DNA from: Isoetes taiwanensis
Lineage: Eukaryota > Streptophyta > Lycopodiopsida > Isoetales > Isoetaceae
Assembly: GCA_021234155.1 (NCBI GenBank)
Contig: JAJEKV010000005.1
Span: 20,134,089 to 20,198,088, forward strand
Direction of reading: 5' to 3'
Length of the DNA stretch: 64,000 bases
In this document: positions 18,223 to 19,480 of the stretch, one piece after another
How positions within the stretch are numbered: the stretch's first letter is position 1
How the letters are laid out: every line of letters starts with the position of its first letter
Position numbers and translations under genes: made by a program
The notes under the pieces: model-generated
Seen by the model: only the letters and a program-made list of their open reading frames with translations
Told to the model about the DNA's origin: nothing
The model's database searches: none

Positions 18223-19480
18223 ATGGCGCACACCAAACAGACTGCACGAAAGTATCGACCAGGCGAAAGAGCCAGCGCCCAAGACAGGAGGAGGATTCAG
18301 CAGCTACTTCGAGAGCAGCTTCTCGCAGAAGGACACCAACTTTCGTCAGCGGAGGAGATCACTTCCGACGAGTCCAAGGAAGAGGAGTCCAGGCAGGAAT
18401 CATTGGACGAGCTAGCCGACTTCATCAACCAGCGGTTAGACGATAGACCAGAGTCGGAGGGATCAATGGACGAAGAAACCCGCAGAGTGTACGAGGAAAT
18501 TGAGGAGGAAATACAAGAATAGGAGAGGGCAGACCGGGAGCAGGCTGCCAACGAACACTAAGAACAGAAGGAGCCCTCCCCCGAACCAACCCTGGAAGAA
18601 GAAATAGAGGCCTGGATCCAAATGCATAAGGCGAAGTCACAATGCCACAAGAAGAAAAAGACCGAGAAGAAAAGGAAGCTAGAAGAACAGGAGGCAGAAG
18701 CAAAAAAGAAGCTCAAAGGGAAGGGCAAGGAGGAGCCCAAAAGAAAACTGAAGAAGACACCCATGGTAAAAATCGTCATCAAGGAACGACAGCCCGACCA
18801 GCCAGCCCGACCAGCCACCATCTACTGACGACTCTGATGACGAGGATTACCAGCCCTTCCCCAGCGGAGACCAAGAAGTAGGGAGCTCCTCAAAACCAGT
18901 GGCCAAGGATCAGCAAATACAAGCACCCCAACCCTACCCCACGTGGGAGAAGGAGAAAGATCCGAAGAAGCCAACCCGACCTGCCCGGGAGTCGTATATG
19001 GTAGACCATCTCAGGGTCTACCAGAAGAAATTAAAAGCCTACAAGGAATACATGAAGAAGTGGGAGGCCTACAACTCCTACTATTAGGAAAACAAGGTCA
19101 CTTACATCGAGGGAGGACGGCCATCGAAGAAAAAGACTCTCAAGCCGCCTCTAGAGAAGCCAGTACCCCCCAAGAAGCCAGTAGCAAGGAAGCCTGGATC
19201 GAGACTGTCGCAAGCAGTCCAAGAGATCCGGCATTTTCAGAGAAGTTACGGCCTTCTCATCCCCCGAGCACCATTCGCCAGACTCGTCAAGGAGGTCGTA
19301 CAAGAGTTCGACACGAGCATGAGAGTCACAGGCGAAATGCTGCTAGCCTTACAGGCAACAGCAGAGCAGCAGTTGGTGCAGCATTTTGAGGACTCGAGGG
19401 CGTGCACTTTGCACGCCAAGAGAGTAACATTGATGACCAAGGACATGCACTTGGCAAGTTCTATTAAAGGAGAACGCTAA
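18223..19480 (+). pseudogene. ORF A: histone H3-like protein encoded by the retrotransposon
   Basis: Starts MAHTKQTARKYRPGE. Residues 1-10 are the H3 tail (only R2 is H; K4 and K9 kept) and YRPG equals H3 residues 41-44. An acidic then Lys-rich coiled-coil-like linker of about 300 residues follows. The last 90 or so residues (19,190-19,477, frame 2) are a complete H3 fold, with [38 protein letters not shown] positions and [15 protein letters not shown], ending IKGER. By hand about 43 of 86 positions equal canonical H3. Loop 1 has H3 length, not the longer CENH3 form. This copy has stops at 18,520, 18,559 and 19,085 and one frameshift near 18,780-18,828. Its own TATA box and polyadenylation signal flank it. 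Expected role: a nucleosome variant or H3 mimic acting in the nucleus. Confidence 0.9.

Follow-up and report, generated by a model that had tools for sequence, protein, structure and literature searches.

The DNA analysed here, referred to as the window, is a 64,000-nucleotide stretch of the Isoetes taiwanensis genome (20134089–20198088), and the genome searched alongside it comprises 1,658,258,908 bases in 1,110 contigs. The window contains a Ty3/gypsy chromovirus, recognisable from its LTR pair, target site duplication, primer site, polypurine tract, gag-pol order and chromodomain. All of its parts lie on the + strand, apart from the duplication and a nested element, to which no strand was assigned. 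The 5' LTR (16045–17524) and the 3' LTR (34049–35514) are flanked by identical copies of the duplication CCACG (16040–16044 and 35515–35519). The K2P distance between the two repeats is 0.097 (1,433 aligned sites), which means that the element did not insert recently. One base past the 5' LTR is a primer binding site, TGGTATCAGAGC (17526–17537), of the type found in plant elements primed by initiator-Met-tRNA, while a polypurine tract with one T inside (34036–34048) lies directly 5' of the 3' LTR. Gag occupies more than one frame (28952–29822; Retrotrans_gag E 1.2e-9 for 29258–29707) and is followed by the protease end and reverse transcriptase start (30401–31246; RVP_2 E 5e-5, RVT_1 E 2.6e-12). 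The RNase H and integrase region is spread over several frames (31415–32935) and was assigned by similarity to a second lineage of H3-bearing elements, lineage B, and by the Pfam domains found in two of its loci (L014 and L026). A chromodomain closes the integrase (32901–33122; PF00385 E 8.3e-9), as it also does in L014 (6e-8) and L026 (5e-9). The overall order of gag, PR-RT-RNaseH-integrase was put together from the pieces in the window and from the lineage B loci L014, L022 and L026. Identity between the window and lineage B is 63–64% for gag and 67–69% for protease/RT (in each case to the four best of 18 loci matched) and 69–71% for 31415–32107 (four best of 14).

Between the primer site and gag lie two further ORFs. 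The first begins with MAHTKQTARKYRPG at 18223, as a preliminary description of this DNA had reported, and is now broken into three parts. Part one (18223–18519) encodes the H3-type N-terminus MAHTKQTARK and a charged linker and ends in a stop; the middle part (18562–19084) continues the charged linker, carries a conserved PYPTW..YNSYY block and one internal frame change, and has stops before and after it; part three (19088–19480) encodes a basic bridge and a complete H3 fold (19208–19477) and ends in a stop, the whole of 19088–19477 being open. The separation of tail from fold by stops and a frameshift, also part of the preliminary description, is thus traced to stops at 18520, 18559 and 19085 and a frame change before 18825. 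Likewise, the LTRs, duplication, primer site, gag, RT and chromodomain place the ORF where it was said to be, between the LTR and gag of a Ty3 chromovirus. The second ORF (ORF2) is represented by an N-terminal part without assigned function (20210–20795), which has a weak hhalign profile match to the ORF2 of lineage B and is interrupted by the nested element. With the stops and frameshift in the H3 ORF and the nested element in ORF2, the window copy is dead.

The nested element (20796–27783) is foreign to the retrotransposon. It is 7 kb long and bounded by 31-bp terminal inverted repeats (90%) that begin TGGGTGTAAATT; no Pfam domains were found in six of its ORFs.

A profile search with the fold gave a match of 19208–19477 to PF00125 at E 6.9e-24, and 46 of 86 residues are identical to host H3, close to the 43 or so claimed earlier. 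Against solved H3 chains in the PDB the alignment is gapless over 88 residues (E 3e-23); 59 of the 60 PDB matches listed are named H3, and the remaining one is a 'Histone domain-containing protein'. The segment therefore encodes an H3 fold, with H3, and not H4, H2A or H2B, as its best match. CENH3/CENP-A has a longer loop 1 and a divergent fold; identity with it was rejected because the window fold aligns without gaps to canonical H3 over those 88 residues. CENH3 and other cellular H3 variants resemble the element protein in joining an H3 fold to a divergent N-terminal part, but they are host genes, which the element H3 is not, and the element fold aligns to canonical H3 without a gap. Structure prediction from the single sequence reached a mean pLDDT of only 52. 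A model made with 22 H3 relatives improved this to 72–79 from residue 61 on, with 50–60 over the first helix. All 50 Foldseek rows listed for this model are nucleosome or histone octamer chains (39–50% identity). Their TM-scores, normalised by query length, lie near 0.5 and their rmsd is at least 11, values which support kinship and not a precise model.

Copies of the window's own lineage, lineage A, are numerous. A DNA search with the H3 ORF gave 1,623 initial candidates; 40 places were scored, with 44 matches because some places are hit in several pieces. At least 1,200 of the 1,258 ORF bases are covered in 29 of these 40 places, the window included, and the rest are shorter; identity to the window ORF is 79–92% (the window's own row left out). 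A working set of 40 A loci was made up of 20 from this search and 20 from a search with the window fold (8,565 candidates, 150 scored), the latter mostly selected for long open frames. The ORF runs unbroken from MARTKQTAR to the end of the fold in L042, L043, L049, L050, L051, L053, L057 and L059. Across the 40 loci, the best nine-residue start equals MARTKQTAR in 19; it deviates at one residue in 10 loci, at two in six, and at three and at four in one locus each. No tail was found in the stretch examined of L063, L066 and L067. The intact protein consists of the first 8–9 residues of H3 (ARTKQTAR, K4 included), a mostly charged linker of about 300–370 residues, which replaces the remainder of the tail, and a full H3 fold. 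The canonical H3 tail with K4, K9, K14, K27 and K36 is accordingly not kept: beyond residue 8 or 9 the subfamilies diverge, with H3 position 9 occupied by K, V, L, I or some other amino acid, and then continue into dissimilar linkers. Since K9 is retained in some subfamilies, the loss of silencing marks is not uniform.

The same two peptides were sought across the whole genome with nucleotide patterns slightly wider than the peptides themselves (for example, AGY was allowed for arginine). The pattern for MARTKQTAR has 1,888 exact sites (904 plus 984) and 2,616 when one mismatch is allowed, with none in the reversed control in either case; only 728 sites are thus one base off, compared with 1,888 that are exact. 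The fold pattern HAKRVT[I/L]M has 3,532 sites (1,786 and 1,746; reversed control 0), or 5,395 with one mismatch (control 8). The site lists start with small contigs, and leftover haplotypes may inflate every one of these genome counts. None of 20 tail sites, read at even steps among 100 listed, continues as host H3. Four of these 20, with unusual linkers, were followed further, and all four have H3-like remains within 1.2 kb and a broken ORF. For 48 listed tail sites on contigs present in both lists, a fold match lies 0.9–1.4 kb downstream in 19; the remainder are two host H3 genes (339 bases), three sites with a fold match at 5.7–6.9 kb and 24 with none.

A genome search with PF00125 itself (8,704 candidates, 150 scored) separated host genes from a second kind of element. 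The 15 rows at the head of the list align with the model over its full length, and the eight checked are all canonical host H3 genes. Lineage B was defined from 20 of the other 135 rows, partly selected for long frames. In all 20 loci the fold is 84–89% identical to host H3, and in 13 it ends a reading frame that stays open for over 400 residues and whose N-terminal part is unrelated. Counterparts of the window's gag and of its PR-RT each lie downstream of the H3 ORF in 18 of the 20 loci (best 63–69% identity). No K4-type N-terminus is present among the B ORFs examined, so the tail is not required in every H3-bearing element, and relatives of the B N-terminal domain numbered 0 among 3,237 candidates. 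One B subfamily (for example L009, L013 and L016) starts MPRFKLT, which by eye recalls the SNAG peptide, an H3 tail mimic of animal repressors; the likeness may be due to chance.

Many B loci (L016, L021, L022, L023 and L025, for example) also carry an ORF2 of about 500 residues between the H3 ORF and gag, 43–80% identical to that of L016 (L016:3575–5017), in which no Pfam match was found. In L014 and L026 ORF2 is missing and gag directly follows the H3 ORF, suggesting that ORF2 may be dispensable. The window ORF2 matches that of lineage B by hhalign at E 0.0017 but with a probability of only 15.5%, and gave neither a direct tblastn match to B nor a Pfam match; judged on these comparisons, the two would be distant relatives at best.

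The relation to gag-pol was also approached from the opposite side, through the 40 copies nearest in RT among 5,308 candidates, paired by eye with the H3 match lists. For at least 20 of these copies the lists contain an H3 match that precedes RT and shares its strand. The spacing in these 20 is 3.0–5.1 kb in 18, 8.9 kb in one and 10.9 kb in the window, where it is lengthened by the nested element. The other 20 have no entry at the usual distance among the matches listed, and one of them has an entry 11.2 kb away; loss of the H3 ORF in some family copies is possible. The histone match is thus significant and other copies do carry the ORF under purifying selection, with the qualification that for half of these 40 RT neighbours (20) the ORF is not shown.

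On this basis, we conclude that the H3 ORF is a regular part of a retrotransposon family. A one-off insertion or pseudogene was rejected on the strength of the ORF copies and the high genome counts of tail and fold patterns, and a separate nested element carrying H3 was rejected because the ORF has the same position upstream of gag-pol in the loci compared. The view that an H3 pseudogene or nested element sits inside the retrotransposon by chance could draw on the dead state of the window copy and the 7 kb of other DNA in its ORF2. It is already contradicted, however, by the constant place upstream of gag-pol in diverged copies, the counts and the strong purifying selection described below, and we regard it as barely credible.

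The conserved gene order invites a different suggestion, that the H3-like protein serves in the packaging of cDNA, or as a tether between the integration complex and host chromatin, together with gag, ORF2 or the chromodomain. Consistent with this, the H3 ORF lies upstream of gag, collinear with gag-pol in the B loci and upstream in at least half of the nearest RT copies, and a chromodomain is present. Any link to gag is conjectural, however, and the cage residues of the HP1 type look absent by eye, leaving binding of an H3 tail by the chromodomain unsupported; we consider such a role unlikely. The integrase chromodomain reads YLVKWKHLP.EDATWV (L014, L018, L026 and window 32901–33122) and, judged by eye, two of the three aromatic residues of the HP1 cage seem to be absent from it, as in group II chromodomains. 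The grouping follows PMC3350952 and PMC12786077, which treat chromodomains and additional ORFs.

Both ends of the protein are under strong purifying selection. In 11 open A ORFs, from loci mostly selected for open frames and with synonymous sites near saturation, dN/dS is 0.03 for the tail, 0.29 for the linker, 0.17 for the PYPTW block, 0.26 for the bridge and 0.05 for the fold. In a set found by DNA similarity (14 copies, window included, the other seven of 21 being left out for want of 80 gap-free codons) the value for the fold is 0.15 (0.10–0.22), compared with 0.85 and 1.73 in the shifted frames, which serve as a rough control only. The value for lineage B, 0.04, is biased low because the set was selected by H3 score. 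A measure independent of any selection by fold comes from the spelling of the tail, where 98 of 100 listed matches use 50 spellings and third-position heterozygosity is 0.48–0.67: the peptide is kept while synonymous sites are near saturation.

Such constraint on the tail bears on whether the protein acts as a histone mimic, its free ARTKQTAR end occupying host H3K4 or H3K9 enzymes or readers outside nucleosomes and its fold serving only to dimerise or stabilise it. The first nine residues are indeed the most constrained part, and they stay constant while the sequence that follows varies between subfamilies. Yet the fold is nearly as constrained and retains the H3–H3' residues, and lineage B keeps the fold without the ARTKQTAR tail; we think mimicry of this kind rather unlikely, if worth bearing in mind.

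We compared 36 A folds with host H3 at positions grouped by their presumed structural roles (H3–H3', H3–H4 and DNA contact), including eight H3–H3' and ten DNA-contact positions. C110, H113, A114, R116, D123, L126 and A127 are retained in 34–36 of the 36 folds and, among the DNA contacts, R69, R83, K115 and T118 in 34–35. Changes relative to the canonical nucleosome include, at other DNA contacts, R63 to P (34), F84 to V (36) and K64 to R (29), as well as L103, an H3–H4 position, to H (34 of 36) and A111 to T (36 of 36). The classes differ in their identity to host H3, with 85% for H3–H3' positions, 65% for the H3–H4 core, 53% for DNA contacts and 47% for positions outside these classes; the equivalent values for lineage B are 100, 90, 94 and 84%. 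The residues that would join H3 to H3' are thus retained in lineage A, and the case for nucleosomes rests on this face more than on the DNA contacts. With DNA contacts at 53% against 47% elsewhere, and L103 changed, DNA binding or H4 pairing may differ from that of canonical H3.

The same figures could be read to mean that a dimer fold derived from H3 has been put to a new use, for instance in a DNA-binding protein resembling a transcription factor and with no role in nucleosomes. The A fold shares about half of its residues with H3, conservation at its DNA-contact positions does not exceed the average, and the histone fold gives cross-matches to CENP-T, CENP-S and TAF profiles, all of them weak and below the curated cut-offs. 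Against this, nearly every PDB match listed is named H3, and the H3–H3' interface, needless for such proteins, is retained, which makes the idea distinctly improbable.

In the fold tree, A and B each form one clade, and B groups with Isoetes H3 (96/91). When three metagenome rows and one decayed row are removed, A, B and host fall on one side at 91/20, a value that is not starred, and a topology with A and B as a single clade is not rejected (p-AU 0.384). One capture from an H3 of the Isoetes line and two captures would both fit these sequences. A protein search with the L043 fold found three proteins among 43 candidates. One of them (P0121; jgi, 358 residues, from a 1,685-base contig) starts MVRTKNTARG and continues with a long linker and an H3 fold that is 45% identical. 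It joins lineage A in the tree, on a very long branch that may mislead; its shared protein plan suggests that the strategy may perhaps not be confined to one plant. The other two, P0122 and P0123, look CENP-A-like. Among proteins of 247–787 residues with an H3 domain, the best 120 of 5,047 matches comprise histone gene models extended by additional sequence, together with proteins that are H3-like or uncharacterised, and no retroelement is named among them. Viral contigs, scanned twice, gave 2 and 13 pattern matches, none of them confirmed.

The preliminary description knew of no LTR retrotransposon with its own core histone, and this agrees with what a search of the open-access literature listed; an H3-like gene has, however, been published for a mobile element of another class, a DNA transposon of the hAT type (PMC3538342). 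The search covered titles and abstract openings and found no LTR retrotransposon with a histone among the matches listed, subscription journals lying mostly outside it and bioRxiv preprints too; the word 'histone' is absent from the main text of PMC8566536, PMC10541799, PMC7264820, PMC6431247 and PMC6338049. According to PMC3538342, the hAT gene, H3L, comes from Pyrenophora tritici-repentis. It resembles the quillwort system in that a mobile element carries and multiplies an H3-like ORF, and H3L also has insertions in its N-terminal tail. It differs in being carried by a fungal DNA transposon whose 26 copies closely resemble one another, with drift suggested by the authors, whereas the quillwort element is an LTR retrotransposon with far more, and diverged, copies and measured purifying selection. 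An element of the H3L type was rejected for the window, since the H3 ORF lies between LTR and gag and no hAT domain was found in the proteins scanned.

Plant Ty3/gypsy chromoviruses, including those of Selaginella (PMC3350952), share the LTRs, gag, the PR-RT-RNaseH-integrase order and the integrase chromodomain, but no histone ORF is mentioned in the accessible part of that paper; the quillwort element has an H3 ORF, and often ORF2, before gag. A likewise stable and probably helpful takeover of a host gene is described in PMC9289625 for Ty3/gypsy elements of orchids that captured an m6A demethylase (AlkB) ORF, although there the gene encodes an RNA demethylase and not a histone. The same source screened 121 angiosperm genomes and counts 15 additional domains in their LTR elements; nine are described in the part available, none of them a histone. 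Viral histones are reviewed in PMC9145170 and include the single H3 of a xenomavirus and of a phycodnavirus. These too are cases of a genetic parasite that encodes one core histone, H3, with an altered tail, but the parasites are DNA viruses, and the accessible part of the review draws no link to retrotransposons.

The preliminary description had proposed that such a protein could form nucleosomes of its own, take part in packaging or silencing, or interfere with host H3 marks. The H3 fold in many copies, the open ORFs, the low dN/dS and the retained H3–H3' residues lead us to prefer, tentatively and with slightly less than even confidence, a role in nucleosomes: the captured-H3 protein would pair with host H4, and the resulting altered nucleosomes would counter silencing and maintain expression of the element. 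Under this proposal a Ty3/gypsy chromovirus lineage would have taken in a histone H3 gene as the first ORF past the primer site, a place from which the protein could be translated directly from element RNA. The retained H3–H3' residues suggest that the product would pair with host H4, and it may then enter nucleosomes on the element's own DNA or on nearby chromatin. Nucleosomes so formed would present the K4 end without the K14–K36 tail and, in some subfamilies, without K9. The K4 end of H3 is a mark of active chromatin, and its retention together with the missing K14–K36 tail would let the element escape host silencing. The chromodomain, which implies chromatin targeting within the same element, we count in favour of the nucleosome role; the changed DNA contacts, the partial retention of K9, the absence of the tail in lineage B and the moderate structure model we count against it.

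A bolder extension, which we hold possible but doubtful, is that the plant harbours a long-running, parasite-owned second H3 system, whose nucleosomes carry the K4 end on a long arm and lack most silencing-mark sites, so that host and parasite contest the make-up of the nucleosome while the linker diversifies between subfamilies and the tail and the fold remain unchanged. Silencing of transposons works through histone marks, and an element that supplies its own H3, with tail start and fold under selection, would attack silencing at its substrate. The many subfamilies, which share one nine-residue H3 end and differ in their linkers, amount to a natural experiment with canonical H3 in the same genome for comparison. 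If the protein enters nucleosomes, they would show which parts of H3 a parasite must keep. Gene annotation would also be affected, because what looks like H3 in this genome is for the most part mobile-element sequence.

Two pairs of hairpins flank the H3 ORF of the window. Those 5' of it lie at 17715–17803 and 17928–18013 (feature 17715–18013; MFE -42.4 and -35.9 kcal/mol, z -8.2 and -7.0), and two more, between the H3 ORF and ORF2, at 19609–19694 and 19812–19897 (feature 19609–19897; MFE -30.4 and -36.8, z -4.5 and -5.4). All four belong to one family, with z from -8.2 to -4.5, and relatives occur in 7 of 20 A loci (L049–L068) compared with 0 of 20 B loci (L009–L028). In Rfam, searched with E up to 0.1, the sole match is to a miRNA family, with a score of 28 bits where the cut-off is 100; the hairpins may be RNA elements through which the additional ORFs are translated or processed. 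Elsewhere in the window, at 52571–52784, a 107-base unit is present in two tandem copies with 91% identity.
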